A stretch of DNA of 64,000 nt from Myxococcota bacterium. GTDB lineage: Bacteria; Myxococcota_A; Bradymonadia; UBA7976; UBA1532. Below the pieces are notes generated by a model, which ran no database searches, was not told where the DNA came from, and saw nothing but the letters and a program-made list of their open reading frames with translations. Location: positions 310,001-374,000 of the forward strand of contig CAUJDF010000058.1 in NCBI GenBank assembly GCA_963169045.1. Reading direction: 5' to 3'. Every line of letters starts with the position of its first letter. Within the stretch, counting starts at the first letter, position 1. The translations under genes were made by a program, and so were the position numbers. Of the stretch, positions 20,968-43,665 are shown piece after piece.

Positions 20968-20989
20968 CGCCACCCCCTGGAGTGACGCG

Positions 20990-27338: not shown

Positions 27339-27994
27339 CGACACAGGAGGTCGCGGTCATCGCCCAGCCCCGCACCAACGGCACGACGGACAAGCGCCGC
27401 CGCATCCTCGAGGCGGCCGTCCACGTGTTCGCCGCACGCGGGTTCTACAACGCCCGCGTCAGCGACATCGCCAAGGAGGCGGGGGTCGCCGACGGCACGA
27501 TCTACCTGTACTTCAAGAACAAGGACGACCTGCTCATCAGCCTGTTCGAAGACCGCATGGAGGCCATCCTCGGCCGGTTCCGCGGGGAGCTCGCCCGCGT
27601 GCCCGACGCCGCCGGTCGCCTGCGCCGTTTCATCGAGCTGCACCTGGGCATGGTCGCCGAGGATCCCACGCTCGCCGAAGTGCTCACCGTCGAGCTGCGC
27701 CAGAGCGCGAAGTTCATGCGCGAGTACAAGGCGCCGAAGTTCGGCGAGTACCTCGACCTGCTCGGCCAGACGCTCGAGCTCGGGCGCCAGACGGGCGAGT
27801 TCCGGTCCGACGTCGACCCCGCGATGCTCAAGCGCGCCGTGTTCGGCGCCCTCGACGAGGTCTCGATGGTGTGGGCCAGCTCGCGCCGCCGCCCCTACGA
27901 GCTCGAGGCGGCCGCCGAGCAGCTCGCGCAGATGTGTACCCACGGCCTGCTCGCGCGCGACGCGTCCGGCAGGAAAACAGGAGAGAGCCCGTGA
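27320..27994 (+). CDS. fadR: TetR-family regulator, FadR-like (fatty acid degradation)
   Basis: About 224 residues. The N-terminal TetR helix-turn-helix (RRRILEAAVHVFAARGFYNA, then VSDIAKEAGVADGTIYLYFKNK) is followed by an acyl-CoA-sensor-like domain resembling FadR of B. subtilis. The genes fadR-etfB-etfA overlap or abut, as in the B. subtilis lcfA-fadR-fadB-etfB-etfA operon, and a matching operator lies at the start. Start is uncertain: ATG 27320 or 27323 falls within the operator and has no ribosome-binding site, while AGGAGG at 27345-27350 is followed 8 bases later only by an in-frame ATC (27359). A short-leader ATG start is preferred. It should repress its own operon until acyl-CoA binds. 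Confidence 0.88.
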   Translation: MMIHSAPTQEVAVIAQPRTNGTTDKRRRILEAAVHVFAARGFYNARVSDIAKEAGVADGTIYLYFKNKDDLLISLFEDRMEAILGRFRGELARVPDAAGRLRRFIELHLGMVAEDPTLAEVLTVELRQSAKFMREYKAPKFGEYLDLLGQTLELGRQTGEFRSDVDPAMLKRAVFGALDEVSMVWASSRRRPYELEAAAEQLAQMCTHGLLARDASGRKTGESP

Positions 27995-28740
27995 AGATCC
28001 TGGTCACCGCGAAGCGGGTCACCGATCCGAGCTCCAAGATCCGTCTCAAGCCGGACCGGAGCGGCATCGACACCAACAACGTCGACTACAAGATGAACCC
28101 CTTCTGCGAGATCGCCGTGGAAGAGGCGCTCAAGCTCGTCGAGGACGCCGGCGGCGAGGTCGTCGCGGTCGCCATCGGCGACGACGAGGCCACCAAGGAG
28201 ATCCGCACCGCGATGGCGATGGGCGCCGACCGCGGCATCCTCGTCGAGTACGACGAGGCGAAGCTCGACTCCGACCTGACGGCGCGCATCCTGCTGAAGC
28301 TCGTCGAGAAGGAGAAGCCGGACGTCGTCCTCATGGGCAAGCAGGCGGTCGACGGCGACAGCAACCAGGTGGCGCAGCTGCTCGCCGAGTACCTCGGCTG
28401 GCCGCAGGCGACCTTCCTCTACCGGCTGCAGCTGAGCGGCAACACGGCGACGGCGCGCCGCGAGGTCGACGGCGGCGTCGAGACGGTCGAGGTCACGCTG
28501 CCCGCGGTGTTCACCACCGACCTGCGCCTCAACGAGCCGCGCTACGCGAGCCTGCCCGGCATCATGAAGGCGAAGAAGAAGCCGCTCGCGACGATGTCCC
28601 CCGGCGATCTCGGCGTCGATACGTCGCTGAAGGTCGAGACGGTGGGCTTCGAGGCGCCCCCGGAGCGCAAGGCGGGCATCAAGGTGAAGTCGGTCGACGA
28701 GCTGGTCGAGCGCCTGGCCTCCGAGGCCAAGGTCATCTGA
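27991..28740 (+). CDS. etfB: Electron transfer flavoprotein beta subunit
   Basis: EtfB binds AMP and pairs with EtfA to carry electrons from acyl-CoA dehydrogenases to the quinone pool. 249 residues, usual length. It begins MKILVTAKRVTDP and contains NPFCEIAVEEALKL and the nucleotide-binding stretch LMGKQAVDGDSNQVAQLLAE, then EPRYASLPGIMKAKKKP, the recognition-loop region typical of EtfB. GTG start at 27991 overlaps the fadR stop by 4 bp and follows GGAGAG. Confidence 0.96.
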   Translation: MKILVTAKRVTDPSSKIRLKPDRSGIDTNNVDYKMNPFCEIAVEEALKLVEDAGGEVVAVAIGDDEATKEIRTAMAMGADRGILVEYDEAKLDSDLTARILLKLVEKEKPDVVLMGKQAVDGDSNQVAQLLAEYLGWPQATFLYRLQLSGNTATARREVDGGVETVEVTLPAVFTTDLRLNEPRYASLPGIMKAKKKPLATMSPGDLGVDTSLKVETVGFEAPPERKAGIKVKSVDELVERLASEAKVI

Positions 28741-28759
28741 GGCAGGGAGGCACAGGCAC

Positions 28760-29737
28760 ATGAGCAAGGTACTCGTTCTCGCGGAGCAGCAGGGCGGCAA
28801 GGTCGCCAAGGCCACCCTGAACGCGATCACCGCCGCCAAGGCCATCGCGCAGAAGACGGGCGGCTCGTTCGAGATCGCCATCGCCGGCAACGGCGTCGAC
28901 GGCGCGGCGGCGGAGCTCGCCGGCTACGGCGCGGCGGCGATCCACCAGCTGGAGCACGCGGCGCTCGCGCAGTACACGGCGCAGGCCTACGCGCAGGCGT
29001 TCGCCCAGGCGGCCAAGGCCAGCGGCGCGACGTTCGTCGTCGCCACCGCGACGGCGATCGGCAAGGACGTGACGCCGCGCGTCGCCGCGCGCCTCGACGC
29101 CGGCATGGCGAGCGACGTCGTCGGCATCGAGGGCGAGGGCGCGGCCCTCGTCTACAAGCGCCCGATGTGGGCCGGCAACGTGATCGGCAAGGTGAAGATC
29201 AACACGCCGGTCAAGGTGCTGACGGTGCGCGGCACCGACTTCGGCGCGGCGGCCCCCGCCGGCGGCTCGAGCCCGATCAGCAAGCTGGCGGCGCAGATCG
29301 ACGCCGGCGCGCTGCGCATGAAGTACGTCGGCCTCGAGGCGGTGAAGTCGGAGCGCCCGGCGCTGACCGAGGCGAGCGTGGTGGTCTCCGGCGGCCGCGG
29401 CCTCAAGGACGCGAGCAACTTCAAGCTCGTCGAGCAGCTCGCCGACACGCTCGGCGGCGCGGTCGGCGCCTCCCGCGCCATCGTCGACGCGGGCTGGGTG
29501 CCCAACGACTGGCAGGTCGGCCAGACCGGCAAGGTCGTCGCGCCCAAGCTCTACATCGCGGTCGGCATCAGCGGCGCCATCCAGCACCTCGCGGGCATGA
29601 CCGGCTCGAAGACGATCGTGGCGATCAACAAGGATCCCGACGCCCCGATCTTCTCGGTGGCGGACTACGGCCTCGTCGCGGATCTCTTCGAGGCGGTGCC
29701 CGAGCTCACCCGGCGCATCGCCGCCCGTAAGGGCTGA
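28760..29737 (+). CDS. etfA: Electron transfer flavoprotein alpha subunit
   Basis: EtfA carries the FAD of the ETF heterodimer. 325 residues. The C-terminal FAD domain shows [41 protein letters not shown] then [20 protein letters not shown] and [20 protein letters not shown], all family hallmarks. Starts 19 bp after etfB. Together with fadR this is a beta-oxidation electron-transfer unit; no acyl-CoA dehydrogenase is adjacent. Confidence 0.97.
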
Positions 29738-29825: not shown

Positions 29826-29855
29826 TTGACTCGCCTTCCGGGGCCCAACTATGGT
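29826..29855 (+). promoter_or_regulatory. Predicted promoter of the PqqD-like gene, leaderless
   Basis: TTGACT (29826-29831), an 18-bp spacer, TATGGT (29850-29855) and then 7 bases to an in-frame GTG at 29863. The ATG at 29851 lies inside the -10, so the GTG is the better start. The layout matches that of the FHA-GGDEF gene. Confidence 0.45.
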
Positions 29856-29862
29856 GCGCCAC

Positions 29863-30156
29863 GTGAAGGCAACCACCGCTTCCTTCGGGCCGGACTGGAT
29901 CCCCAAACCGGGGCGCCGGGTGGCGTCGCGCGTCATCGACGGGCGCGCGCTGCTGCTCGACCCCGCCGAGGACCGCGTCCACATGCTCAACGAGGTGGGC
30001 ACCTTCATCTGGAGCCTGGTCAACGAACGGCGCCACTCCGTGCGCGATCTCGCCGGCGCCGTCGCCGCCGAGTTCGAAGTCGACGACGCGACGGCCACGG
30101 CCGACCTGTACGAGTTCCTCGACGGGCTGCTCGCGCAGCGCTTCATCGACGGGTAG
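29863..30156 (+). CDS. PqqD-like peptide-recognition protein
   Basis: About 97 residues, the size of PqqD. The pattern RRVASRVIDGRALLLDPAED, then RVHMLNEVGTFIWSLV and LYEFLDGLLAQRFI is the PqqD/RRE winged-helix profile (Y-LNEVG--IW-L--G--S---L---L). Such proteins bind leader peptides and present them to radical SAM or other maturases. A SPASM radical SAM gene and a small Cys-rich peptide lie 7-8 kb downstream on the same strand, separated only by a giant lipoprotein gene, so this is a candidate recognition subunit for that pathway. Start placed at GTG 29863 from the promoter; ATG 29851 would add four residues. Confidence 0.82.
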   Translation: MKATTASFGPDWIPKPGRRVASRVIDGRALLLDPAEDRVHMLNEVGTFIWSLVNERRHSVRDLAGAVAAEFEVDDATATADLYEFLDGLLAQRFIDG

Positions 30157-30209
30157 GCGCGCGCCACGCCGTTCAAGCGACCGCACCGTTTCACCGAAGA
30201 GGGGTGGGG

Positions 30210-30226
30210 CGGTGGGAGACCCACCG
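30210..30226 (+). promoter_or_regulatory. Short hairpin in the leader of the giant lipoprotein gene
   Basis: CGGTGGG-AGA-CCCACCG, a perfect 7-bp stem with a 3-base loop, 24 bp before the ATG at 30250 and just upstream of GGGGAGGA. It could stabilise the message or modulate initiation; no T-run follows, so it is not a standard terminator. Confidence 0.35.
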
Positions 30227-30249
30227 TCGTTCGCGGGGAGGATGCCGAG

Positions 30250-33200
30250 ATGAGTCGTCTGCGCTGGGGCGCTCCGTTCGCCGCTGCGTTGTTGCTGAGC
30301 GCGCCGTTCGCCGGCTGCGACGACGGGGGAGGGGGCGGCTCGGCGCCGGACCTCTCGATCAACTTCGTCTCCCCCCTCGAGGGCGCGACGCTGGACTGCG
30401 GCGACGACCTCGACCGCGACACGGACGACGCGCTCGACTTCACCGTCGAAGCGCTCGTGGCGCTGAAGGGCAGCGATCCCGAGGGGCTCCGGGCGCGGCT
30501 CACCGCCGAGGGTCACGACGGGTTCGTCGTCACCGCGACGGTGCCCGCGTCCGGGCGCGTGCTCTTCGGCAGCGCGCCGTTGCCGCTCGACGACGAGCTC
30601 GTCCTGAAGCTGGCGCTCCTCGACGGCGACGACGAGGTCGCCACGGCGCAGCGCACGATCCACACCGGCATCGATCCGGCGAGCGACGAGTGCCGAACGG
30701 TGCCCGTACCGCCGACGCTCAGCTTCGAGCGGCCCACCGACGGCACGGTCTTCGGCGCCGCGGACGACGCGGACGGCAACCTCGGCAACGGCCTGCAGGT
30801 CGAGGTCGTGATCGGGGTGGCGGGCGAGGCGCCCGGGCGCATCGCGCTCGAGATCGACGGCGCGGCCACAGCCGAGGCCGACATCGCGAACGGCAAGGCG
30901 ACGTTCGCCGAGGTGACGCTGCCCGTCGGCGCGGAGCCGCGCGAGGTGCGCCTCGCGGCGACCGCGCCGGGCACCGCCGCCCGCACCGAGATCGGCGTCC
31001 GCGTCGAGATCGACGCCTGCACGCTGACGCTCTCGCCCCAGCCCGGCGGCGACGGCTGCGACGTGCTCGCCGCCGCCGATCTCGACCCGAACACGCCCGG
31101 CGTCCAGGCCGAGCTCACCGCCGAGACCAACTGCGCGCGCGTGACCTTCGAGGTCAACGGCGATCGCACCGAGCCGGTCGAGGTCGAGGGCGGCATCGCC
31201 CGCGCCGAGGTCACGCTCGTCGAGGGCGAGAACACGGTCGGCGCGACGGCGACCGGCGACGGCGGCCTGAGCGCCGAGGTCGAACCCTACATGCTCGTCG
31301 TCGACGCGGCGCCGCCGGTCCTCGGCCTCGAGCTCAGCGCGATCGGCGCCAACCTCATCGGGCACGAGGGCAACGAGCGGCTGCCGGACGGCGGCTTCCG
31401 CGCCACGCTGCGCGGGACGGCCGAGGGCCTGCCCGCCGGCGCCACGGTGCGCGTCGCCTTCGACCCGCCGCTGCCCGGCGCCGTCGACGACGAGGTGACC
31501 GTCGGGGCGGACGGCCGCTTCGCCATCGCCGCCGAGATCACCGATTTCGCTTGCGGTCGGACGCTGACCGTCTCCGCCGTGGACGACTGCGGCAACGAGG
31601 GCCGGAGCCCTGCCTACACCGTGTGCTTCGATCCGGTGGAGCCGCGGCTCACGATCGTCGAGCCCGCCGACGGCGCCGCCTTCCAGCCCTTGCAGGACGA
31701 CCTGCCGGAGGTGGACGGCAAGCAGATCACGGCGACGGTGGAGATCGAGGACCCGCGCCCGGCCGACGTCGATTACGACGTGTTCGTCGAGTGCCAGCTC
31801 CCCGGCCAGCAGTTCCTCGGCCGCTTCACCCGGCCCGAGCACCGCGTGCGGCGCGCCGACGCCGACGCCGAGGGCCGCGTGGCGGTGACGGTCACCTTCG
31901 CCGCGGCGGACCAGGGCCCCATCCGCTGCCGCGGCGCGGCCGAACTTTCGCCCAACGCCGCGATTCCGCAGGAGAATCCGCCCACCTGGACCGTGCTCTC
32001 CGACACGCCGGTCTTCGATCTCGCGCAGCCCGCCGACGGCCAGTGCTTCGGCGCCGGCGAGGTGGTGGTCGGCGGCAGCGGGCGGCGGCTGACGGCGAAC
32101 GGCGCCCGCCTCGAGGCGGTCGTCACCCCCGAGGGCGGCGCGGCCGGCGAGCCCGTCGCGCTCGAGCGACAGGGCGACGACGCGTACGCGGTGACGTTCG
32201 GCGGCGCCGCCGGCCCCGAGGCGCTCGCCGACGGGCGGTACCACGTGGCGGTGAGCGGCCGCGTCCAGGGCGACGCTCCCATCGCCGTCTCCCCCGCGGA
32301 GGGCGTCGACTTCGTCGTCGACACCACCGCGCCGTCCATCGAGCTGATCGCGCCCGCCGACGGCGCCGAGCTCGGCCCCGAGCAGGACGCCGACGGCGAC
32401 GCGAGCAACTGCGTGCAGACGACCCTCCAGCTGCAGCTGGCGGACCTGAGCGCGACGCGCCTCTGCTACACCATCAACGGCAGCGCCGAGTTCTGCGACG
32501 CGGTCGACGAGGACGGCGTGTTCGCGCCCGTGGTCGACCTGTTGGACGGCGACAACGTGATCGGCGTGCGCGCGGTCGACTGCGGCGGACGCGAGACCAC
32601 GCGCACGTTCCACCTCGGCGCGGTCGGCTGCCCGCCGCGCCTGCAGGTCGTGGCCCCGGTGGATGGCGCGCGCCTCGCGGCCGGCGCCGACGTCGATCCC
32701 GACACCGCCGGCCTGCAGCTCGACGTCCGCGTCGAGAGCGCCCTGGCCGAAGGCACGGAGATCGTGGTCGCCGTCGTGTCCGAGCTGCAGGACGCCACGT
32801 TCGGTCCGGTCGCCGTCGGTGCCGACGGCTCGACGACGGTGCGCGCGACCGTCGAGCTGCCCGCGGAGCCCGCCGGGCCCTTCGATTTCCGCCTGCAGCC
32901 GCGGCTCGCCGACGGCGCCGCCAGCGGCCCCGCGGCGCGCATCACCTTCCTCTTCACGCCGCCGACCATCGAGCTCGGCGCGCTCGGCGCCTGCCTGAAC
33001 GCCACCTACGTCGACGCGGCGGTGGCGCCCGGCTTCCAGCTCGCGGTGACCGCCACCGCACAGGGCGTCGATCCCGGCGCGGCGGCGAGGGTGACGGCGA
33101 CGTGCGGCGACGCCGAGCCGTTCGAAGCGCAGGGCGTGGTCGGCGACGGCGGGGCGATCGCGTTCGACCTGCTGACGCTGCCCGACGAGGCGGACTGCGA

Positions 33201-36200
33201 CCTCACCGCGCGCGTGACCGACGCCGCCGGCCAGGAGGGCGCCGACGCCCTCGCCGTGCGCATCGACCGGGTCGCGCCGCAGATTCGCGTGCTGACGCCC
33301 GCCCACGGGACCCAGATCACGGCCGCCGACGACGAGGTCCCCGGCGACGAGATCGAGAGCGAGGGCCTGCAGCTCACCCCGCAGATCGAGGTCTGCGGCG
33401 CCGCAGGTCAGATCCTCACCGTCGAGACCGCGCCGGCGCTGAGCGACGACGGCCAGCCCTTCGCGCTCGACATCGGCGAGGGCGACTGCGCCATCGCCAG
33501 CCTCGGCCAGCGGACGCTGCCCGCGGGCGACCTCGAGATCCGCGCCCGCGCCACCGACGCCTGCGGGAACGAGGCGGTGGCCGTGAGCGCCAGCGTCGTG
33601 GATCCCGACTCGTCGATCTCCATCCGCGAGCCGGCGGAGGGCACGAACATCCTCGCCGGCGACGACGAGGACGAGAACACCGCCGGCTGCCAGGTGTACC
33701 TGCGTGCCGTGATCGAGCAGCTCGGCGCCGAGGCCGAGTACTTCGTCTGCACCAGCGCCAACCAGGGCGCCGGTCCCGAGGCGTGCGACGGCCGCTCGTC
33801 GGCGCTCGCCCCCGCCGGCTGCAGCGTCGAGCAGGGCGCCGGCGGCCCCGAGCTCAACTGCCTGCTCAGCCTGCAGGACGGCCGCCACACCCTGTCCGTG
33901 GTCGGCGTCTTCGGCGAGCCCGTCGAGTCCGGCCCCATCTCCGTCCTCGTCGACTGCACCGAACCGACGGTCGAGGCCTTCGTCGTCCCGCAGGACGCCG
34001 ACGCCAATGCCTGCGTCAACCGCGTCGAGCGCCGCCGGCCCGAACGCATCAACGACCGCGCCGAGTTCGACCTGCGCGCGACGATCACCGGCATCGAGGA
34101 CGGCCGGAGCGTGACGCTGCTGCGCGCGCCCAACCGCGATCGCGTCACCTCCGCGATCATCGCCAACGGCCAGGTCCAGTTCCCGCTGGACCTCGACCAG
34201 GGCACCCACAACCTGTACCTGTCTTCTTCCGACGCGGCCGGCAACCGCCTGCCGGACTTCAACGACCCCGACGCGTTCGTTTATCGCTTGCAGATCGATA
34301 CGTTGCGGCCGCAGACCCAGCTCGTCGGTCTCGCGGCGGACGCCTGCCTCAACGGCGGCGCGGACGCTGATCCCGGCGCCGACGGCCTGCAGTACGCCGT
34401 GCGCGCCTCCGCCCTCGGTCAGCCCGACGAGGCGCTCACCGGCCGGCTCGCGATCGACGGCCGCGAGCCGGTGGAGCAGGCCGCGCTCGGCGGCCAGGTG
34501 GCCTTCCCGGCGCAGGCGATCGGCGAGGGGGCCCACGAGATCCGCGTGACCGTGCTCGATGCGTGCGGCAACGCGGCGAGCGTCGCGGGCTTCGAGCGCG
34601 TCGACAACCTCGACGACTGGAGCCGCCCGTTGCCGGTGTCCTTCAAGGTGGACACGGTGGCGCCGGTGCCGGTGATCGCCGGCCTCGATGACGGCCAGGT
34701 GCTCACCGACGACGACGACGCCGACGGCGACCCGGCGAACGGCTTCCAGAGCGACCTCGAGATCGACTTCGATCCGCGCGCCGGCATCGAGGCCGGACGC
34801 ACGGTGGAGCTCCGGGCGAACGGCCGGCCGCTCGCCACGCAGCCGGCGGCGCTGCTCGTGCCGCCGCAGTTCCAGGCGCCGATCGACGCCCGCGTCACGC
34901 TCGGCCCCGGCGATCAGGTCCTGACCGCCGTCGCCGGCGACGCCTGCGGCAACGTGGGCACCTCGGCGCCGGTGGCGGTCAGCGCCCGCCTGAGCGGCTG
35001 CCTGAGCGCGCTCGTCTTCGCCGAGGAGCCGGTGGTCTTCGGCCCGACCGACGGCGCGGTCGGCAACGGCACGCTCACCGTCGCGGGCATCGACGGCACG
35101 GTGGCGGTCGACATCAACGCCGACTGCGTAGGCACTCAGGCGGAGCTCGTCACCGGCCCGGCCGGCGGCGAGCAGGTGCTCGGCGCCGTCGCCGTCCCGG
35201 CGAACGGCGCCGTCCGGTTCGCCAACGTCGCGCTGCCGCGCGGCATCGACGACCTGCGCATTCGCATCGTGCTCAACGGCCGGACGACGTTCTCGCCGAC
35301 GGAGCGCGTCATCGTCGACCTCGACGTGCCGGCGGTCGCGATCTCGACGCCCGCCGCGCCCGAGCCGGCGCCGGTCCAGGCCGACACCGACGGCAACCCC
35401 GCCAACGGCCTGCAGACGACGGTGACCGCGCGCGTGACCGAGGCGAACATCGCCACGAACAGCGCGCGCGCCGCCACGCTCGAGGTCGACGGACAGCAGG
35501 TGGCGAGCCGCGACGCGCTCGATCAGACGAGCCCGCTCGACGTGACGTTCACCGACGTCACGCTCGCCGAGGGCCCGGCCACGCTGCGCATCTGCATCAC
35601 CGACGCCGCCGGCAACCAGGGCTGCGCGACGCGCCAGGTGCTCGTCGATCCCGCCGCGCCCGGCGCGCCGGAGCTCGAGTTCGAGATCGTGCACCCGCGC
35701 AGCACCGAGGTGGAGCTGACGTTCGCCGCCCCCGGCGACAACGGTGCCGCCGGGGCGCCGGTCGCCGCCTTCGAGGTGCGCCGCTCGAACGGCCCCATCG
35801 CCGACGACAACGCCTGGAACCTGGCGACGCTGATCGGCAACTACCCGAACACCGCGCAGGCGCTCGGCGCCGGGGCGCCCTTCCAGCCCGGCGCCCAGGT
35901 GGCGCTGTCGCTCGTCGACGCGGCGGCGCTGCCGCTGCACCAGAACCACTTCGTCGCGGTGCGCGCCATCGATGACGCGGGCCGTCTCGGTGGGATCGCG
36001 GCGGTCAACGTCGACCTCCGCCTGCGCACGGCGCAGTTCGACATCGGACCGGCGAACTTCTGGCCGAGCGAGACCTTCCTGAACCAGCGCTCGCTCATCC
36101 AGGGTCTCGGCGATCTCAACGGCGACGGCCACGGCGACGCGATCGTCAGCGCGCTGGCGTTCCTGCCGGTCGCGCCGTTCACCGAGTTCCGCCAGGTCGC

Positions 36201-37341
36201 GCTGATCCTGAGCGCGGGCGACGGTGAGCCGGCGAACGCGCAGGTGGTGCCGCTCGTGGTCCCGACGGTGAACGGCACGGCGCTCAGCGCGTTCGGCGGC
36301 TTCGCCGGGAGCGTGGGCGACGTCGACGGCGACGGCACGCCGGACTTCGCGGTCGTCGGCGTGAGCGGCGGAAACGGCGCGGTGGCGCTGTACTTCGGCG
36401 GCGGCAACGCGGCCCAGATCGCGGCCGCCGACGTGGTGATCCTCACGCCCGGGCGCTTCGTCACCTACGCGACGGGCATCGGCAACTTCAACCAGCTGGC
36501 GGGCGATCCGGCGGGCGGCTACGGCGACCTGGCGATCGGCGGCGCCAACGGCAACGCCAACAACTTCGTCAACGTCGTCGCCGGCCGCTCGCGGGCGGCC
36601 TGGACGGCGGCGGCGACGATCGACGCCTCGCAGTACAACGCCGCGACCGGCATCACGCGTCTCGTCGCCGGGGCCGCCGGCGCGACGGTGGCTGCCGCCG
36701 GCAAGTCGATCGCCGCGGGCGACATCGACGGCGACGGCCGCACCGAGGTCATCTTCTCGGGCGGCGGCAGCTTCGGCCGCGTCTTCCTGTTCGAGGGCGG
36801 CGACGCGCTCGCCGCGACGCTCACCCACCCGGTGGCGAACAACGGCTCGCGCGAGATCGCCGACCTGTGCCCGCCCGCGCCCGGCGGCGCGACCTCGTTC
36901 TGGGGCTCGAACATGTTCGGCGGCGTCGATCTCGACGGCCAGCCCGGCGAGGACTTCGCGATCGGCAACTACAACATCAAGAAGATCGTGACGGTGAGCG
37001 GCGGTCTCCTGCGCCTCGACTGCTTCGGCCGCAACCCGGCCTCGTACGGCGCGTACATGAACGACGTCGGCGACGTGAACGACGACGGCGCCCGCGACAT
37101 CATCGCCAGCCACCTCGACGATGGTCACGTCGAGGCACACATCTTCTACAACGATGGCGCCGGCCGGTTCGGCGGCGACGAGGTCGGCGGGCAGCGCTCG
37201 GCCGACATCACGCTGAACAGCTTCCCGCGCCGCAAGCGCGGGGTGGACGGCCTCGGCGACATCGATGGAGATGGCTTCGACGATTTCGGGGTCGTATACA
37301 AAGAGCCCGGCGGCGCGCTGCGGGCCGTGCTGTACTACTGA
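30250..37341 (+). CDS. Giant lipoprotein with Ig-like repeats and FG-GAP C-terminus
   Basis: 2,363 residues. A signal peptide ends in the lipobox SAPFAGC (Cys near 23), followed by a Gly-rich spacer. The bulk (about 30-1900) is more than ten Ig-like beta-sandwich repeats of about 130-180 residues, each opening with a phrase like 'I-P-DG--L---DD-DGD-ANG-Q' containing an Asp-rich loop (ADDADGNLGNGLQ, DDADGDPANGFQ, DTDGNPANGLQ). The C-terminal about 450 residues carry at least five FG-GAP/VCBS-type calcium loops (GDLNGDGHGD, GDVDGDGTPDF, GDIDGDGRTEV, GDIDGDGFDDF). It looks like a long calcium-stiffened surface stalk with a propeller head. The small peptide gene follows 8 bp later. Confidence 0.88.
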   Translation: MSRLRWGAPFAAALLLSAPFAGCDDGGGGGSAPDLSINFVSPLEGATLDCGDDLDRDTDDALDFTVEALVALKGSDPEGLRARLTAEGHDGFVVTATVPASGRVLFGSAPLPLDDELVLKLALLDGDDEVATAQRTIHTGIDPASDECRTVPVPPTLSFERPTDGTVFGAADDADGNLGNGLQVEVVIGVAGEAPGRIALEIDGAATAEADIANGKATFAEVTLPVGAEPREVRLAATAPGTAARTEIGVRVEIDACTLTLSPQPGGDGCDVLAAADLDPNTPGVQAELTAETNCARVTFEVNGDRTEPVEVEGGIARAEVTLVEGENTVGATATGDGGLSAEVEPYMLVVDAAPPVLGLELSAIGANLIGHEGNERLPDGGFRATLRGTAEGLPAGATVRVAFDPPLPGAVDDEVTVGADGRFAIAAEITDFACGRTLTVSAVDDCGNEGRSPAYTVCFDPVEPRLTIVEPADGAAFQPLQDDLPEVDGKQITATVEIEDPRPADVDYDVFVECQLPGQQFLGRFTRPEHRVRRADADAEGRVAVTVTFAAADQGPIRCRGAAELSPNAAIPQENPPTWTVLSDTPVFDLAQPADGQCFGAGEVVVGGSGRRLTANGARLEAVVTPEGGAAGEPVALERQGDDAYAVTFGGAAGPEALADGRYHVAVSGRVQGDAPIAVSPAEGVDFVVDTTAPSIELIAPADGAELGPEQDADGDASNCVQTTLQLQLADLSATRLCYTINGSAEFCDAVDEDGVFAPVVDLLDGDNVIGVRAVDCGGRETTRTFHLGAVGCPPRLQVVAPVDGARLAAGADVDPDTAGLQLDVRVESALAEGTEIVVAVVSELQDATFGPVAVGADGSTTVRATVELPAEPAGPFDFRLQPRLADGAASGPAARITFLFTPPTIELGALGACLNATYVDAAVAPGFQLAVTATAQGVDPGAAARVTATCGDAEPFEAQGVVGDGGAIAFDLLTLPDEADCDLTARVTDAAGQEGADALAVRIDRVAPQIRVLTPAHGTQITAADDEVPGDEIESEGLQLTPQIEVCGAAGQILTVETAPALSDDGQPFALDIGEGDCAIASLGQRTLPAGDLEIRARATDACGNEAVAVSASVVDPDSSISIREPAEGTNILAGDDEDENTAGCQVYLRAVIEQLGAEAEYFVCTSANQGAGPEACDGRSSALAPAGCSVEQGAGGPELNCLLSLQDGRHTLSVVGVFGEPVESGPISVLVDCTEPTVEAFVVPQDADANACVNRVERRRPERINDRAEFDLRATITGIEDGRSVTLLRAPNRDRVTSAIIANGQVQFPLDLDQGTHNLYLSSSDAAGNRLPDFNDPDAFVYRLQIDTLRPQTQLVGLAADACLNGGADADPGADGLQYAVRASALGQPDEALTGRLAIDGREPVEQAALGGQVAFPAQAIGEGAHEIRVTVLDACGNAASVAGFERVDNLDDWSRPLPVSFKVDTVAPVPVIAGLDDGQVLTDDDDADGDPANGFQSDLEIDFDPRAGIEAGRTVELRANGRPLATQPAALLVPPQFQAPIDARVTLGPGDQVLTAVAGDACGNVGTSAPVAVSARLSGCLSALVFAEEPVVFGPTDGAVGNGTLTVAGIDGTVAVDINADCVGTQAELVTGPAGGEQVLGAVAVPANGAVRFANVALPRGIDDLRIRIVLNGRTTFSPTERVIVDLDVPAVAISTPAAPEPAPVQADTDGNPANGLQTTVTARVTEANIATNSARAATLEVDGQQVASRDALDQTSPLDVTFTDVTLAEGPATLRICITDAAGNQGCATRQVLVDPAAPGAPELEFEIVHPRSTEVELTFAAPGDNGAAGAPVAAFEVRRSNGPIADDNAWNLATLIGNYPNTAQALGAGAPFQPGAQVALSLVDAAALPLHQNHFVAVRAIDDAGRLGGIAAVNVDLRLRTAQFDIGPANFWPSETFLNQRSLIQGLGDLNGDGHGDAIVSALAFLPVAPFTEFRQVALILSAGDGEPANAQVVPLVVPTVNGTALSAFGGFAGSVGDVDGDGTPDFAVVGVSGGNGAVALYFGGGNAAQIAAADVVILTPGRFVTYATGIGNFNQLAGDPAGGYGDLAIGGANGNANNFVNVVAGRSRAAWTAAATIDASQYNAATGITRLVAGAAGATVAAAGKSIAAGDIDGDGRTEVIFSGGGSFGRVFLFEGGDALAATLTHPVANNGSREIADLCPPAPGGATSFWGSNMFGGVDLDGQPGEDFAIGNYNIKKIVTVSGGLLRLDCFGRNPASYGAYMNDVGDVNDDGARDIIASHLDDGHVEAHIFYNDGAGRFGGDEVGGQRSADITLNSFPRRKRGVDGLGDIDGDGFDDFGVVYKEPGGALRAVLYY

Positions 37342-37349
37342 GGTTGACG

Positions 37350-37529
37350 ATGAGCGAGCGACACCCGACGAACCGGAACGAGGAACGCCGGCCCCCGCGC
37401 GAGCGGCGACCCTACTCGAAGCCGGGTTTCCTCACCCAGCAGGTGTTCGAGCGCCAGGCGCTGTCGTGCTCGGGCTGCGCGCTCGAGAGCGCCGGTCCGC
37501 CGCCGTTCGGCTGCTGCCTGCGCTCCTGA
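37350..37529 (+). CDS. 59-residue Cys-rich peptide, candidate RiPP precursor
   Basis: A small ORF directly between the giant lipoprotein and an HPr-kinase-like gene. The N-terminal half is highly basic and polar; Tyr22 and Pro25 form a YxxP motif (PYSKPGF) like the leader motif bound by PqqD-type recognition domains in lasso-peptide systems. The C-terminal part begins near VFERQAL and has Cys40, Cys43, Cys55 and Cys56, a Pro-Pro-Pro-Phe-Gly stretch, and ends in Ser59. Neighbouring genes encode a radical SAM/SPASM enzyme, a kinase-like protein and a Sec11-like peptidase, so I infer a ribosomally made, modified peptide. No homologue was looked up; the boundary between leader and core is a guess. 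Confidence 0.68.
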   Translation: MSERHPTNRNEERRPPRERRPYSKPGFLTQQVFERQALSCSGCALESAGPPPFGCCLRS

Positions 37530-37546
37530 GCCCCTCCCGCCTGCCC

Positions 37547-38407
37547 ATGGCCGCCGTCCACATCGCCGGCGTCCGGCTCGTCTTCGACGGGCCGCTGCCC
37601 GTCGGCGAGCTCGGCCCGTTTCTCGATCCCGCGCCCGCCGAAGCCACCCTCACCCTGCGCGCCGCGAAGGCCCCGGCGGCGCCGCCCGGGACGACCTTCG
37701 TGTATGCCCGCCACAACCTGCGCTTCGCGCTCGCCGGCGACGTGGCCCATGTCTGGACGGACGGCACGACCGGCCCGCTCTGGGCGGCGATGGAGCTCGC
37801 GCTGCACGCGGCGCTCGACCGGCTCGACGGCTTCGTGGTCCACGCCTCGGCGGGCCTCGTCGACGACGGCGCCTGGCTGGTGCCGGGGCGCTCCGGCGCG
37901 GGCAAGAGCACGGTGGCACGCGAGGCGGGCTTCGAGCGGGTGCTCGCCGACGAGCTGGTCGTCCTGCGTCGGCACGCCGGCGGCTGGCGCGCCTACGGCA
38001 CGCCGTTCTGGAGCCAGGGCCGCACGCGCCCGCTCGACGCGGGCCACGCGCCGCTCGCGCTCGTCGCCGACCCGGTCAAGAGCGACGCGGTCGCCGCCGT
38101 CCCGTGGCCGAAGAGCGACGCCGCCGCCGGCCTGCTCGCTTGCGTCACCAGCTACGATGAAACGCCGGCGGCGCGCCGGCGCGCGTTCGATCTCGCTTGC
38201 GATCTGGTCGAGGCGGTCCCCTGTGTCCGACTCGCCTTCCCGAAGGAGGGACCATGGCTGTCTGCGGCCCGGAGGGCGGTGCGCGAAGCTTCTTCCAGCA
38301 CGCCATCGAGCGCGCCATCCCGCTCTGGGTCCACTGGGACCTCACCTGGCGGTGCGACCACAAGTGCGTCCACTGCTACCTCACGGATCGCCACCAGCCG
38401 GAGCTGA
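37547..38407 (+). CDS. HPr kinase/phosphorylase-like protein (HprK-like)
   Basis: About 286 residues as read. The C-terminal half is an HprK-like P-loop kinase fold: VVHASAGLVDDGAWLVPGRS, then P-loop GRSGAGKST (Gly114-Ser121), LADELVVLRR and YGTPFWSQG, ending near PCVRLAFPKEGPW. Stand-alone proteins of this type accompany PqqD-like proteins in RiPP clusters; in paeninodin-type lasso clusters they phosphorylate the C-terminal serine of the precursor, and the peptide here ends in serine. The last roughly 40 residues are Ser/Thr-rich and lie wholly inside the next gene in another frame (154-bp overlap from 38254), so the true stop or an undetected frameshift near 38290 is open to question. Confidence 0.75.
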   Translation: MAAVHIAGVRLVFDGPLPVGELGPFLDPAPAEATLTLRAAKAPAAPPGTTFVYARHNLRFALAGDVAHVWTDGTTGPLWAAMELALHAALDRLDGFVVHASAGLVDDGAWLVPGRSGAGKSTVAREAGFERVLADELVVLRRHAGGWRAYGTPFWSQGRTRPLDAGHAPLALVADPVKSDAVAAVPWPKSDAAAGLLACVTSYDETPAARRRAFDLACDLVEAVPCVRLAFPKEGPWLSAARRAVREASSSTPSSAPSRSGSTGTSPGGATTSASTATSRIATSRS

Positions 38408-39477
38408 CGTACGAGGAGAGCCTCGGCGTCCTCGACGCGCTCGTCGAGGTAGGCACGCTCTTCCTGCTCTTCAGCGGCGGCGACCTCTTCTTGCGGCCGG
38501 ACGCGCTCGACATCCTGCGGGCGGCGCGCGCGCGCAACTTCGACGTGAAGATCATCACCCACGGCAACCACGTCACCGACGAGGTCGCCGACGCGCTCTG
38601 CGAGATGGGCGTGACGCGGGTGAGCATGTCGCTGTACTCGGACGACCCCGCCGAGCACGAGGCGATCACGCTCATCCCCGGCAGCCACCAGAAGACGATC
38701 GACGCCGGGCGCCGCCTCGCGGCCCGCGGCATGAAGGTGCAGTACAAGACGCCGGTGATGGTGCACAACCGGCGCGGCTGGGCCGGCGTGAAGCGGCTCG
38801 CCGCCGAGATCGGGGCCGACTGGGAGTGCGACGCCCACATCCAGCCCGACGACCAGGCGGACTTCGGCCTGTGCAGCATCGGCGCGCACTCGACGGAGCG
38901 CATCGTCGCCGTGATGAACGGCCTCGAGCAGGTGCGCGACATGGTCGTGCCCATCCCCGAGATGCCCGACACGCCGAGCCACTACCACACCTGCGCGGCG
39001 GCGAAGGGCAGCGCCTACATCACGCCGGACGGACGCCTGTGGCCGTGCATCCTGTGGCGCGACAGCCTCGGCAGCCTGCGCGAGCACACGTTCCGCGAGC
39101 TGTGGTACGACAACCCGAAGATCGAAGAGATGCGCGTGGTCCGGCGCTCCTCGTACCTCGGCGACTGCGCCGGCTGCGGCTATCACGGCAAGTGCGGCTA
39201 CTGTCCGGGGCTCTCGCACGCGGAGACCGGCGACCCGGGGCGGCGGAGCGCCTATGTCTGCGAGCGCACGCACCTGACGATGGCCGCGCTCGAGTACCTG
39301 CACCGGCTCAACGAGCGCGGGGCGCCGCTGCCGCTGCCCGGCGAGGAGGCGGCGCTCTTCGAGGAGGCGCCGACGTTCGCCGAGCGGCAGTGGGCGGCGC
39401 GCAAGGCAGGCATGGCGCGCCCCGCGGACCGCATCCGCCTCGTCCAGATCGATGAGCCCGAACGCGCGCGCCGCTGA
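38254..39477 (+). CDS. Radical SAM/SPASM maturase
   Basis: 407 residues. The radical SAM 4Fe-4S motif is CDHKCVHC (Cys34, Cys38, Cys41) after LWVHWDLTWR, followed by SGGDLFLRPD. The C-terminal SPASM region has TCAAAKGSAYITPDGRLWPC then CAGCGYHGKCGYCPG and a final YVCE, providing ligands for auxiliary clusters. SPASM enzymes such as PqqE, AlbA and anSME make C-C or thioether links in peptides or proteins. Context (Cys-rich peptide, PqqD-like and HprK-like proteins) points to peptide modification. ATG at 38254 follows AAGGAGGG. The frame is open upstream to 38197. It overlaps the peptidase gene by 26 bp. Confidence 0.92.
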   Translation: MAVCGPEGGARSFFQHAIERAIPLWVHWDLTWRCDHKCVHCYLTDRHQPELTYEESLGVLDALVEVGTLFLLFSGGDLFLRPDALDILRAARARNFDVKIITHGNHVTDEVADALCEMGVTRVSMSLYSDDPAEHEAITLIPGSHQKTIDAGRRLAARGMKVQYKTPVMVHNRRGWAGVKRLAAEIGADWECDAHIQPDDQADFGLCSIGAHSTERIVAVMNGLEQVRDMVVPIPEMPDTPSHYHTCAAAKGSAYITPDGRLWPCILWRDSLGSLREHTFRELWYDNPKIEEMRVVRRSSYLGDCAGCGYHGKCGYCPGLSHAETGDPGRRSAYVCERTHLTMAALEYLHRLNERGAPLPLPGEEAALFEEAPTFAERQWAARKAGMARPADRIRLVQIDEPERARR

Positions 39478-39907
39478 CCCGTTCGCCGGCGCCGCCGACG
39501 CGATGGCGCTCGAGCTGCTCGCGCGCGGCGCGGAGATCACCTTCGTCGCGCGCGGCGCCTCGATGTGGCCGTTCCTGCGCGACGGCGACCGGGTGACCGT
39601 GGCGCCGCTGTCCCGGCGGCCGCGCCGCGGCGACGTCGTCCTGACGCGCGGCGCCGCGCTCGGCGTCGTGCACCGCGTGATCGCGCTGCGCGGCGACCGC
39701 GTGCTCACCAAGGGCGACGCGCTCCCACGGACGGACGGCTGGCGACCGCTCGCCGACGTGCTCGGGCGGGTCGCCCGCGTCGAGCGCCGCGGTCGCGCCG
39801 TGGCGATGCCGCGCTGGCTGCCGCTCGCGGCCTCGCTCCTGGCCGGCGTCGCGCCGCGCCGGCTCGTGCGCTTCGCGTGCGCCGGCGTCCGTCACTCCCA
39901 GGGGTAG
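39452..39907 (+). CDS. S24/S26-type signal peptidase with Ser-His catalytic pattern
   Basis: 151 residues. The serine motif GASMWPFL (Ser37) is followed by GDRV, GDVVLT, VVHRVIAL with His74 and TKGDALPRTD with Asp89 and Asp95. In bacterial signal peptidase I the second catalytic residue is lysine; here it is histidine, as in the ER/archaeal Sec11 type. One C-terminal membrane segment (about 125-142). Such short peptidases occur in PqqD-containing clusters and could remove a leader. It overlaps the radical SAM gene by 26 bp and the convergent methyltransferase-like gene by 16 bp. Confidence 0.82.
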   Translation: MSPNARAADPFAGAADAMALELLARGAEITFVARGASMWPFLRDGDRVTVAPLSRRPRRGDVVLTRGAALGVVHRVIALRGDRVLTKGDALPRTDGWRPLADVLGRVARVERRGRAVAMPRWLPLAASLLAGVAPRRLVRFACAGVRHSQG

Positions 39908-40962
39908 CGCGCGGCCGGCGCGGGACGCCCGGCATCGACGCGCGCGCGGATCTGCAGGATTCCACTGCGTTTTCCGTCGCCGACGCGCAGATCGCGGTAC
40001 GTGCGCACGCGCCACTGCCCGACGACGGGACGCCCGCGCAGCGGCCGGAAGTCGTTCTCGGGGTAGGCGAACCACTCGAGGCCGTCGGGCGTGGCGAAGA
40101 CACCGGCGTACCCGGGGCGCCGGCCGCAGAAGCCCTCGGCGTCGAACGCGTAGACCACCACGTCCGGCTCGATCTCGTCGACCACGTCGCGGAAGCCGTC
40201 GCCGGTCGGCGGCCACGACATCAGCAGCGCCCGCGGCGCGCCTTCGATCGTGGCGCGCACGTCCCGCACCTGGCGGCGGACGCCCGCCGGCGTCGGGTAC
40301 GCGTCGCAGACGTCGACCACCGTCACGTCGAGGCCCTCGTCGGCGGCGAGCAGTCCGGCGAGCAGGCCGTTGCCGCCGCCGAGGTCCCACAGGCGTCCGC
40401 CGGCGGCGCGCACGGCGGCGCCGATGGCGGCGATGTGCCGGCGCTCCGGCAGCCAGTACTGCAGCGGCCGATTGCCCGCGAAGTCGGCGCGCGCATAGGC
40501 GTGGACCGGTCGCGCGACGTCCTCGAGCGGCAGGCGGTCACTGCCGAGTCCGGACCACGGCGCGGGATCGGCCCCCAGCCCCTGGCAGGCCATGCCCTGG
40601 TAGAAGACGCAGCCGTGGCAGTCGTGCGGGGTCGCGAAGGCGCCCATGGCCGAGAACTGCGAGCTGCCCGGCAGGCAGAAGGGCAGATAGGTCGAGACCC
40701 TGGCCGCGTGCCGCCGCGCGAAGTCCGCGTGGACCGCGGCCGCCTGGGAGCGAAGCTGCTCGGGTCGGTACACGACCTGGACGAGCGCCCGGCGCAGCGT
40801 CGGCGCCGCGAGCCAGGGTTCGAGCCGCGCCAGCGCGGGCGCCAGGTCCTCGTCGAACGCGACGCGGGCCCAGAGCGCGCGCAGCACCGGGGGCGGCCCC
40901 GCCGCCTGGACGAGGCCCTTGCTCGGCGGGGGCAGGTGCGCCGTCAGCGGATGGGCCACCAC
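39892..40962 (-). CDS. Methyltransferase-like protein with four-Cys insert
   Basis: 356 residues. The C-terminal half has a class I SAM-methyltransferase-type fold: GGRLWDLGGGNGLLAGLLA (motif I), VTVVDV (motif II acidic residue) and LLMSWPPTG near motif IV. The N-terminal half carries a Cys cluster, PFCLPG and then HDCHGCVFYQGMACQG, which could bind zinc or an Fe-S cluster. It reads towards the peptide cluster and overlaps its last gene by 16 bp; it overlaps the dehydrogenase gene by 19 bp upstream. Whether it belongs to the peptide pathway is unclear. GTG starts at 40962 and 40959 are both possible. Confidence 0.68.
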   Translation of the reverse strand: MVAHPLTAHLPPPSKGLVQAAGPPPVLRALWARVAFDEDLAPALARLEPWLAAPTLRRALVQVVYRPEQLRSQAAAVHADFARRHAARVSTYLPFCLPGSSQFSAMGAFATPHDCHGCVFYQGMACQGLGADPAPWSGLGSDRLPLEDVARPVHAYARADFAGNRPLQYWLPERRHIAAIGAAVRAAGGRLWDLGGGNGLLAGLLAADEGLDVTVVDVCDAYPTPAGVRRQVRDVRATIEGAPRALLMSWPPTGDGFRDVVDEIEPDVVVYAFDAEGFCGRRPGYAGVFATPDGLEWFAYPENDFRPLRGRPVVGQWRVRTYRDLRVGDGKRSGILQIRARVDAGRPAPAARYPWE

Positions 40963-42017
40963 TGCTTCGTGGCGTCACGGGGGCGCAGCAGCGCCTCGTC
41001 GGCGAGGCGGTCGGCGACGGCGCCCGGGGGCTCGCCCGTCGCGTCGGACTCCTCGAAGATGCGGGTCACCGTCTCGGCGATCTGCTCGGCGGCGACGAGG
41101 ATCGTCTCGCGCACGTCGGCGACGTGCTCGAGGTAGGTCTTTGCGGCGAGGATCATCGCGCCGGCGTTGACCGCGTAGTCGGGTGCGTAGCGAATGCCGC
41201 GCTCGAGCAGGTACCGGTCGGCGGTCGCGTCGCCGAGCTGGTTGTTGGCGGCGCCGACGACGGCCTTCACCCGCAGCCGCCCCACGTTGACGGCGTCGAG
41301 CACGCCGCTCGTCGCGCAGGGGCAGAAGACGTCGGCCGGCGCGTCGTAGATCTCGGCCGGATCGACGATCGTGGCGCCGAGCTCGCTCGCCGCCCACTCG
41401 GCGCGCCCGCGGTCGAGGTCGGATGCCACCACGCGGGCGCCCTCGTGCGCGAGGCGCCGCGCCACCCGTGAGCCCATCGTGCCCAGGCCCTGGACGGCGA
41501 CGGTGCGCCCGCTCAGCTCCTCACCGAGACCGGCGGCCGCCAGCGTGGCCCGCATCGCCGCGAGCACGCCGTCGGCGACGCCGCCCGCGAGGTCGAGCGT
41601 GCGCTCGTCGGGCACCGCGACGTAGCGCGTCGTCTGCCGCATGAGCGCGATGTCACCGGGCCCAAGGCCCAAGTCCCCGGACGTATAGAAACGCCCGCCG
41701 AGGCTCTCCACGTAGCTGCCCACGGCGCGGACCATCGCGCCGCGGTCCTTCACGCCGGGGTGGTCGATGAAGACGCCCTTGCCGCCGCCGGCGTTGAGGC
41801 CCGCGAGCGCGCACTTGCGTGTCATCGCCACTGCGAGCGCCGCGCCGTCGGCGAGCGCGGTCGCCGCGTCGGCGTAGGGCAAGAAACGGCAGCCGCCGAT
41901 GGCCGGCCCGCGCGTGGTGTCGTGGATGACGATGAAGCCGATCAGGCCGCTGGCCGGGTCGCTGACGGCGACCACCTCTTCGAGGCCGCGCTCCATCATC
42001 ACCTGCAACAGATCCAC
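40944..42017 (-). CDS. Leucine/valine/phenylalanine dehydrogenase family
   Basis: A 357-residue NAD-dependent amino-acid dehydrogenase of the Glu/Leu/Phe/Val family. Features: IGGCRFLPYADAATALADG, catalytic lysines in MTRKCALAGLNAGGGKGVFI, dinucleotide-binding VQGLGTMGSRVARRL, and CPCATSGVLD then VGAANNQL, typical of leucine dehydrogenase. It interconverts branched-chain amino acids and 2-oxo acids; in related bacteria this feeds branched fatty acid synthesis. GTG at 42017 is chosen because GGAGGT lies 5 bases upstream and the resulting N-terminus (VDLLQVMMERGLEEVV) aligns with LeuDH; an ATG at 42029 precedes the site. Substrate preference cannot be settled by eye. Confidence 0.9.
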   Translation of the reverse strand: MDLLQVMMERGLEEVVAVSDPASGLIGFIVIHDTTRGPAIGGCRFLPYADAATALADGAALAVAMTRKCALAGLNAGGGKGVFIDHPGVKDRGAMVRAVGSYVESLGGRFYTSGDLGLGPGDIALMRQTTRYVAVPDERTLDLAGGVADGVLAAMRATLAAAGLGEELSGRTVAVQGLGTMGSRVARRLAHEGARVVASDLDRGRAEWAASELGATIVDPAEIYDAPADVFCPCATSGVLDAVNVGRLRVKAVVGAANNQLGDATADRYLLERGIRYAPDYAVNAGAMILAAKTYLEHVADVRETILVAAEQIAETVTRIFEESDATGEPPGAVADRLADEALLRPRDATKQWWPIR

Positions 42018-42090
42018 GCACACCTCCATCGGTTCACGGGCACACGGCGGCGCCCCGCCTTGCTTGGCAGGCGCGCGATGATACGTCACC

Positions 42091-43665
42091 ATGCGCAACA
42101 TGCCCAATGCCCTCGTCCTCAACTGCACGCCGCACGAGACCCGCGTCGCGCTGCTCGAAGACCACCAGGTCGCCGAGATCTACATCGAGCGCCGTCGGGA
42201 CTCGTCCTTGGTGGGCAACATCTACAAGGGGCGGGTCATCCGGGTGCTGCCGGGCATGCAGGCAGCCTTCGTCGACATCGGGCTCGAGCGGGCGGCCTTC
42301 CTCTACGTGGCCGACGTGGCCGAGGCCGCGGTGCGCGGCGCGACGCGTCACGGCGGCGACCTGCCGACCATCCTCAACACGCTGAGCGAGGCCCGGCACG
42401 AGTCGAGCGGCAAGCCCATTCAAGACCTGCTGCAAGAAGGGCAGGAGGTCATGGTGCAGGTGGCCAAGGAGCCCATCGGCACCAAGGGCGCGCGCGTCAC
42501 CAACCACGTCAGCATCGCCGGGCGCCACCTCGTCTACATGCCGACCGTCGACCACATCGGCATCAGCCGCCGCATCGTCGACGAGGAGGAGCGGCGCCGG
42601 CTGCGCGGCATCCTCGAAGCGCTCGTGCCCGAGGGCGGCGGCTTCGTGGCGCGAACGGCGGCCGAGGGGCGCACCCCCGAGGAGCTGCGCGCCGACCTCG
42701 AGTTCCTGCGGCAGGTGTGGAACGACATCCTCACCCGCATGGAGAGCGGCCCGGCGCCGATGACGCTCTACGAGGACCTCGACCTCGTGCTGCGCGCCGC
42801 TCGCGACCTCGTCACGCCCGAGCTCGACGAGATCCACATCGACGACGAAGGCGAGTACGACCGCCTGACGCGCTTCATGCGCCGCTTCATGCCGCGCTAC
42901 ACCGACCGCGTGAAGCGCTACCCGGGCCCCGACCCGATCTTCGACGCGTACGGCGTCGAGATCGAGCTCAACCGGGCGCTCGGCCGCAAGGTGTGGCTCA
43001 AGAGCGGCGGCTACCTGATCATCGACCAGACCGAGGCGCTCACCGCCGTCGACGTCAACACCGGCCGTTACGTCGGCAAGCGCAACCTCGAGGACACCAT
43101 CCTCAAGACGAACCTCGAGGCCGTGGAAGAGATCGTGCGCCAGCTGCGGCTGCGCAACATCGGCGGCATCATCATCGTCGACTTCATCGACATGGAGAAC
43201 CAGGTCAACCGCGACCGCGTGTACACGGCCTTCGCCGAGGCGCTGAAGCGGGACCGGGCCAAGTCGAACATCCTCGAGATCAGCGAGCTCGGGCTCGTCG
43301 AGATGACGCGCAAGCGCGTGCGCGACTCGCTGTTGCGCACCGTCTGCGAGCCCTGCTTCTACTGCCAGGGGGCGGGCACGCTGAAGAGCCGCACCTCGGT
43401 GGCCTACGAGATCTACCGCGAGGTGGTGCGCGAGGCGGAGTTCGTCGACGAGCCGACGATCCGGGTGGCGGTGCACCCTCGTATCGCGCAGGTGCTGCGC
43501 GACGAGGAGTCGTCGCTCATGGCGACGCTCGAGACGAAGGTGGGCAAGCGACTGAGAGTCGAAGAGCGACCCGACTTCCACCTCGAGCACTACGAGCTCG
43601 GGGGCGACGAGAGTAGCGCCGACGCCGCGGGCGACGCGCCCGTGCTGCACGAGCGGACGGGGTGA
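42091..43665 (+). CDS. rng: Ribonuclease G (RNase E/G family)
   Basis: A 524-residue single-strand endoribonuclease. The S1 domain (SLVGNIYKGRVIRVLPGMQA, AFVDIGLERAAFLYVAD) is followed by the 5'-sensor/RNase H region, the catalytic Asp residues in AVDVNTGRYVGK and IVDFIDMENQVNRD, and the zinc-link CEPCFYCQGAG. It lacks the long C-terminal scaffold of RNase E, so RNase G-like is the better name. The family trims 16S rRNA 5' ends and turns over mRNA. Divergent from the dehydrogenase gene; the ATG at 42091 is 8 bases from GATGAT, a possible -10, though no matching -35 is seen. PilZ follows. Confidence 0.95.
   Translation: MRNMPNALVLNCTPHETRVALLEDHQVAEIYIERRRDSSLVGNIYKGRVIRVLPGMQAAFVDIGLERAAFLYVADVAEAAVRGATRHGGDLPTILNTLSEARHESSGKPIQDLLQEGQEVMVQVAKEPIGTKGARVTNHVSIAGRHLVYMPTVDHIGISRRIVDEEERRRLRGILEALVPEGGGFVARTAAEGRTPEELRADLEFLRQVWNDILTRMESGPAPMTLYEDLDLVLRAARDLVTPELDEIHIDDEGEYDRLTRFMRRFMPRYTDRVKRYPGPDPIFDAYGVEIELNRALGRKVWLKSGGYLIIDQTEALTAVDVNTGRYVGKRNLEDTILKTNLEAVEEIVRQLRLRNIGGIIIVDFIDMENQVNRDRVYTAFAEALKRDRAKSNILEISELGLVEMTRKRVRDSLLRTVCEPCFYCQGAGTLKSRTSVAYEIYREVVREAEFVDEPTIRVAVHPRIAQVLRDEESSLMATLETKVGKRLRVEERPDFHLEHYELGGDESSADAAGDAPVLHERTG

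Follow-up and report, generated by a model that had tools for sequence, protein, structure and literature searches.

A predicted peptide-maturation cassette with a radical SAM/SPASM enzyme, an HprK-like kinase and a giant lipoprotein in uncultured Myxococcota

We describe a six-gene cassette that is very probably a maturation system for a ribosomally synthesized and post-translationally modified peptide (RiPP) of Myxococcota. It lies in a stretch of 64,000 nucleotides, hereafter the window, to which all coordinates refer (GenBank assembly GCA_963169045.1, 9.0 Mb in 109 contigs; contig CAUJDF010000058.1, positions 310,001 to 374,000 of the forward strand). On the forward strand of the window follow a gene for a PqqD-like leader-binding protein, one for a giant lipoprotein, a small precursor-peptide gene and genes for a predicted HprK/PEPCK-fold kinase, a radical S-adenosylmethionine (SAM) enzyme with a SPASM domain and an S26-type peptidase. 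An initial annotation had proposed a RiPP-type pathway with these components between 29863 and 40962. All of them, the 2,363-residue lipoprotein included, are present where it placed them, and a conserved peptide with a conserved set of modifying enzymes beside it now lends the proposal support. The cassette falls within those limits except at its start, since the PqqD gene begins at 29851; the far end (39892 to 40962) belongs to a methyltransferase-like gene that is not conserved with the cassette.

The precursor peptide

The peptide gene (37350–37529) encodes 59 residues, with Tyr22 and Pro25 of a YxxP motif, the pair Phe33-Glu34, cysteines at positions 40, 43, 55 and 56, and a C-terminal Ser59; the predicted core runs from Cys40 to Ser59. 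The gene sits inside an open frame of 220 codons. At a G+C content of 73% long chance frames are abundant, and the open frame by itself is therefore no evidence for a gene. It is conservation that shows the peptide gene to be genuine. A profile built from the peptides hits every one of 13 genomes from the same family and all three from the sister family exactly once; across the phylum, 46 of 379 genomes have a match. Among 14 aligned peptides Tyr22, Pro25, Phe33, Glu34, Leu38 and Cys40 are invariant and Ser59 nearly so. When peptides are compared inside one genus or with those of near neighbours, the ratio of nonsynonymous to synonymous differences (pN/pS) is mostly 0.34–0.7, and near 1 in some pairs.

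The abundance of long frames at this base composition would also allow the 59-codon frame to be a chance one, with the enzymes acting elsewhere, for example on the giant lipoprotein. Conservation of the motif in 16 of 16 genomes, the mostly reduced pN/pS between close relatives and the persistence of the peptide gene beside the kinase gene where the lipoprotein is elsewhere or absent leave this explanation a negligible probability. The initial annotation hinged on a small cysteine-containing frame being conserved next to homologous enzymes, and such a frame was found there. It had also drawn attention to four cysteines. All four are present, but the alignment keeps only positions 40 and 55, and the idea that all four are functional was abandoned.

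The first core cysteine lies 18–20 residues after the Tyr or Trp of the leader motif in 45 of 53 peptides. A YxxP or WxxP motif is present in the peptides, the distant ones having been found partly through that very motif. Ala, Ser or Gly occupies both positions −1 and −3 relative to the first core cysteine in 26 of the 32 peptides with the F-E pair and in 34 of 53 overall, against about 9% expected from composition, although residue counts of this kind, here and below, are inflated by the relatedness of the sequences. A leader/core boundary between Ser39 and Cys40 (codons 37464–37469) is predicted from this small-x-small pattern. The C-terminal serine, from which phosphorylation had been suggested, is kept in 26 of the 32 F-E-type peptides; only four of the 21 others have it, the rest ending in Thr, Gly, Phe, Glu and other residues. 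Since the kinase motifs are intact in those other lineages, phosphorylation of a C-terminal serine cannot be a general rule and was rejected as one. No other invariant hydroxyl was identified among the peptides.

Distribution and gene order

The radical SAM gene, like the peptide gene, is present in all 13 same-family and all three sister-family genomes. Searches with tblastn in the same-family relatives recovered the order (etfB–etfA–)pqqD–lipoprotein–peptide–hprK–radical SAM–S26, with the peptide readable at the same place. When named genome contigs were scanned, a single radical SAM protein as query gave no matches and a radical SAM alignment gave 62 loci. The better-scoring loci are nearly all from Myxococcota or from loosely named proteobacterial metagenome-assembled genomes (MAGs), and the named relatives are assemblies of uncultured Myxococcota. 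One record titled Klebsiella pneumoniae (a MAG) carries a typical Myxococcota cassette and is probably a mislabelled assembly.

The order of the window is found at 22 of 53 peptide-bearing loci (18, plus four, including the window, after an over-long kinase start had been corrected). A second order occurs in other families, where kinase and PqqD genes precede radical SAM–lipoprotein–peptide–S26 and the lipoprotein, of 1220–1377 residues with FG-GAP repeats, again stands directly before the peptide. At three further loci (L151, L169 and L171) a YxxP or WxxP peptide was recognized by eye in the same slot from a motif scan. Peptides of the most distant group match with weak E-values of about 0.0001–0.2, and their support is their position between lipoprotein and kinase genes; no YxxP peptide was identified in a locus labelled Nitrospinae (L173). 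Two deltaproteobacterial loci (L159 and L164) have the order hprK–pqqD–radical SAM–peptide–S26, with a WxxP peptide that ends in CPP, no lipoprotein found beside the peptide and an HxsC4-like second radical SAM gene nearby.

The cassette is dispersed in the sister family. The pair peptide–hprK lies on one contig (L098–L100), the radical SAM gene on another (L039, L040 and L042) and pqqD on a third. There pqqD adjoins the lipoprotein gene in two genomes (G013 and G014), the two being on different contigs in the fragmented assembly of the remaining one (G015). All three genomes keep these parts even though they are dispersed, which speaks for a joint function. An S26 match was obtained in one of the three.

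The giant lipoprotein

The lipoprotein gene (30250–37341) encodes 2363 residues with Big_13 immunoglobulin-like and FG-GAP repeats in Pfam. At loci with the first gene order, the homologue in this position has 1907–2613 residues, mostly 2350–2400. An AlphaFold model of the last 533 residues (mean pLDDT confidence score 86.3) contains, at residues 1895–2363, a β-propeller of the integrin-α type, which superposes on the integrin αL headpiece with Z 30.3 and a root-mean-square deviation (r.m.s.d.) of 3.0 over 343 residues at 14% identity; this is a shared fold and does not show function.

The gene stands directly before the peptide gene in most loci, in both gene orders and in many families, and the tie that the initial annotation had suggested between peptide and lipoprotein thereby gains weight. 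The lipoprotein is probably the partner of the peptide product, and we hold a functional pairing of the two to be somewhat more probable than mere proximity. The product might instead be a secreted antimicrobial or signal, with the lipoprotein an unrelated surface protein that shares the operon. Most characterized SPASM RiPPs are bacteriocins or signals, and in three genomes the cassette is present but the lipoprotein is not. Against this stand the two gene orders with the lipoprotein in the same position, the correlation between lipoprotein and radical SAM distances (r 0.88; see below), the single copy per genome and the fact that neither an exporter nor an immunity gene was seen beside the cassette; we regard a weapon or signal as rather unlikely. 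The near-constant linkage and the conservation suggest a basic role in these bacteria and not that of an antibiotic.

The processing enzymes

The PqqD-like protein (29851–30156, 101 residues), which would act as the RiPP recognition element, matches PF05402 with 63 bits against a cut-off of 23.4 and is conserved in relatives. With a YxxP or WxxP motif in the peptides, binding of the leader is predicted.

The radical SAM gene (38254–39477, 407 residues) has a strong ribosome-binding sequence, AAGGAGGG, directly 5' of its start. Its product scores above the cut-offs of PF04055 and PF13186, and ten cysteines are invariant in the alignment: Cys34, Cys38 and Cys41 of the CxxxCxxC motif and seven of the SPASM region (247, 265, 305, 308, 314, 317 and 336), as is characteristic of a SPASM enzyme with auxiliary clusters. 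Its best NCBIfam matches are all far below cut-off, and none of the SPASM RiPP subfamily models reaches its own. The closest relatives of solved structure by sequence are PqqE and then SkfB.

The kinship with PqqE raises the question of whether the product is a redox cofactor derived from the peptide, like pyrroloquinoline quinone (PQQ) or mycofactocin, with electron-transfer flavoprotein (ETF) and the β-propeller lipoprotein as its users. A PqqD and a SPASM enzyme occur together here, the distribution is that of a single-copy core gene, and etfB–etfA lie with a FadR-like TetR regulator directly 5' of pqqD (27320–29737, forward strand), their products matching mycofactocin-associated ETF models below cut-off. 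These neighbours adjoin the cassette only in the window's own family; the ETF genes are absent beside pqqD–lipoprotein in the sister family and do not recur at other loci, and they were rejected as part of the system. The radical SAM enzyme reaches 76.4 bits against 265 for MftC and 76.9 against 381 for PqqE, the cores differ from one another in both length and sequence and share no invariant Tyr/Glu or Val-Tyr, and the propeller is integrin-like. A cofactor thus appears quite improbable.

The kinase gene (37547–38407) has no stop codon before 38407 and so overlaps the radical SAM gene; its conserved part extends to about 38290. The product shows the motifs expected of an HprK-like peptide kinase, a histidine, a Walker A sequence (G-xx-G-x-G-K-S/T) and an acidic pair of the D-D kind. 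His99, the Walker A motif G114xSGxGK120(S/T)T and the pair DE of the window are kept in the alignment; the His, Gly, Lys and Walker A Ser/Thr are invariant, and DE or DD is the usual acidic pair, with other residues in a few sequences. The model (pLDDT 93.4) has the PEPCK/HprK fold, with Foldseek E-values of 4e-5 to PEPCK and 2e-3 to HprK. A second structural comparison gave Z 12.2 and an r.m.s.d. of 4.3 over 224 residues; the 50 matches listed from it were all PEPCK, HprK entries appearing in the Foldseek list. The motif is close to that reported for lasso-peptide kinases, which are HprK-like enzymes proven to phosphorylate precursor peptides with the aid of a PqqD-type B1 protein, the earlier ones at a C-terminal serine (PMC10368454).

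A kinase of this family may also act on another protein in an HPr-like regulatory scheme, or serve as a sensor, leaving the peptide only radical-modified and cleaved. The enzyme is intact where peptides lack a C-terminal serine, and its acidic pair varies. We nonetheless find such a role unlikely: at no fewer than 30 of 53 loci hprK is the next gene after that of the peptide, the pair stays together where the other genes disperse, and the lasso-cluster kinases do act on precursor peptides (PMC10368454). Phosphorylation of the peptide is, by analogy with them, fairly likely.

The S26-type gene (39452–39907) encodes a Ser/His peptidase of 151 residues, with PF10502 at 28.5 bits (cut-off 22.9) and Ser37, His74 and Gly88-Asp89 invariant among 26 sequences. 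Its most hydrophobic stretch of 19 residues scores only 1.39, so that a membrane anchor is doubtful and the protein is plausibly a soluble leader peptidase. The match to the SodX model is weak and below cut-off (21.3 of 63.25 bits).

Proposed pathway

We propose that PqqD, as its family would suggest, binds the peptide at the YxxP leader and presents it. The SPASM enzyme would then cross-link the cysteine-containing core, most likely through Cys40 and Cys55; a cross-link of this kind is likely. The kinase may phosphorylate a core hydroxyl, as in the phosphorylated lasso peptides, and in the F-E clade to which the window belongs this would probably be Ser59, for which we put the chances at about even. 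The S26 enzyme, encoded next door, would cut after Ala37-Leu38-Ser39 to free a core of 20 residues that starts at Cys40. The small-x-small pattern resembles that of signal-peptidase substrates, and this placing of the cut has roughly equal odds of being right or wrong. Finally, and this is the weakest step, the product may act together with the giant lipoprotein on the surface, a plausible role being that of a ligand for the integrin-like propeller. The pathway as a whole seems moderately likely.

The set of genes and its order, the co-occurrence of unlinked parts, the intact active sites, the folds and the single copy kept in each genome are established, and from these we infer the chemistry. 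Several points weigh against the pathway. The window's peptide compared with those of other genera gives pN/pS of 0.8–0.9, as of a fast-changing gene, with synonymous saturation uncorrected. Most peptides outside the F-E clade lack the C-terminal serine. The lipoprotein was not found (E 1e-30) in three same-family genomes (G002, G007 and G009), which keep the cassette with pqqD adjoining the peptide; it is therefore not needed to make the peptide and is a partner at most. Pairwise distances of lipoprotein, HprK and radical SAM enzyme correlate (Mantel r 0.80–0.88 over 37 loci, the upper value for lipoprotein and radical SAM enzyme), as expected for joint inheritance, but shared ancestry alone can yield correlations this high. 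No exporter belonging to the cassette was found among the neighbouring genes, which leaves a cytosolic peptide with no evident route to a lipoprotein on the surface.

As a rule, SPASM RiPP clusters have a sporadic distribution and are weapon- or signal-like. The present cassette differs: it is kept as a single copy throughout entire families of uncultured Myxococcota, brings a radical SAM enzyme together with an HprK-like kinase and an S26 peptidase, and is linked to a giant surface protein. If the pathway is correct, this would suggest that a doubly modified peptide serves a house-keeping or social function. A bolder and tentative idea, which we think has perhaps one chance in a few, is that of a new RiPP class belonging to the core genome of much of the uncultured Myxococcota. 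In it the radical-cross-linked, phosphorylated peptide would be made specifically to bind the integrin-like lipoprotein, or to form a lasting part of it, the two making up a self-made peptide/receptor pair for adhesion or cell–cell recognition. If the proposed pathway holds, about 50 natural variants are at hand for probing such kinases and SPASM enzymes.

Neighbouring genes

The cassette is surrounded by ordinary core genes (KsgA, TsaD, UvrD, RNase E/G and a penicillin-binding protein). Overlapping the S26 gene tail to tail is the gene for the methyltransferase-like protein (39892–40962, reverse strand), with a Cys-rich stretch, CHGCVFYQGMAC. Its relatives adjoin S26 in one locus (L002) and a Glu/Leu/Phe/Val-type dehydrogenase in another (L033), association with the cassette being otherwise not general. 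A dehydrogenase of this type follows in the window (40944–42128, reverse strand), whose best NCBIfam match, to the tryptophan dehydrogenase ScyB, stays under the cut-off with 236.6 of 600 bits. Neither gene is kept beside the cassette in relatives, and both were rejected as parts of it. The M50 peptidase, TPR, LysM and FHA genes around one group of loci were judged to be ordinary flanking synteny.

Elsewhere in the window, a reverse-strand gene (18388–20973) encodes an 861-residue protein with copper-binding motifs of the MopE type and has a 90-bp tandem repeat at 19741–20049. The most extreme composition of the window is at 10001–12000 (G+C 79.6%, AT skew −0.387).

Comparison with known systems

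The six-gene combination is apparently undescribed; the open-access literature on RiPPs with radical SAM enzyme and HPr kinase, on SynChlorMet and on FG-GAP with PqqD yielded no description of it, though such an absence is weak evidence. The nearest set in NCBIfam is SynChlorMet (ScmC, ScmD, ScmE and ScmF), which likewise combines HprK-like ScmC, PqqD-like ScmD and radical SAM/SPASM proteins, ScmC and ScmD being the best matches of the window's kinase and PqqD. The scores are, however, far below cut-off (25.6 of 125, 32.1 of 100 and about 65 of 400 bits). SynChlorMet has two radical SAM genes where the present cassette has one, and the S26 peptidase, the giant lipoprotein and a defined peptide are additional here. 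With all matches below the curated cut-offs and none of 58 genomes above that of ScmC, membership was rejected. Our peptides would, if the pathway holds, supply defined precursor families for enzymes resembling this uncharacterized set.

Phosphorylated lasso peptides of the paeninodin type, including that of BsfK from Bradymonas, share the YxxP leader, the PqqD-type B1 protein and an HprK-like kinase with the motif H-G-G-G-K-S-D, the site in earlier cases being a C-terminal serine (PMC10368454). The present cassette has a radical SAM/SPASM enzyme and an S26 peptidase in place of the lasso enzymes; a Pfam scan of the neighbours from 18.4 to 50.3 kb found neither a lasso cyclase (asparagine-synthetase-like) nor a B2 transglutaminase-like peptidase. 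With PQQ and mycofactocin it has a PqqD and a PqqE-like radical SAM enzyme in common, but it differs in its longer, variable core, the kinase, the S26 peptidase and the integrin-like lipoprotein. SodX, the maturation protease of nickel superoxide dismutase, is similarly an S26-type protease that trims a precursor, on a different substrate. The sactipeptides and ranthipeptides (SkfB, PapB) also pair an enzyme carrying seven SPASM cysteines with a short Cys-containing core. Relative to these SPASM RiPPs, the Myxococcota system lacks an exporter and adds a kinase and an S26 peptidase.

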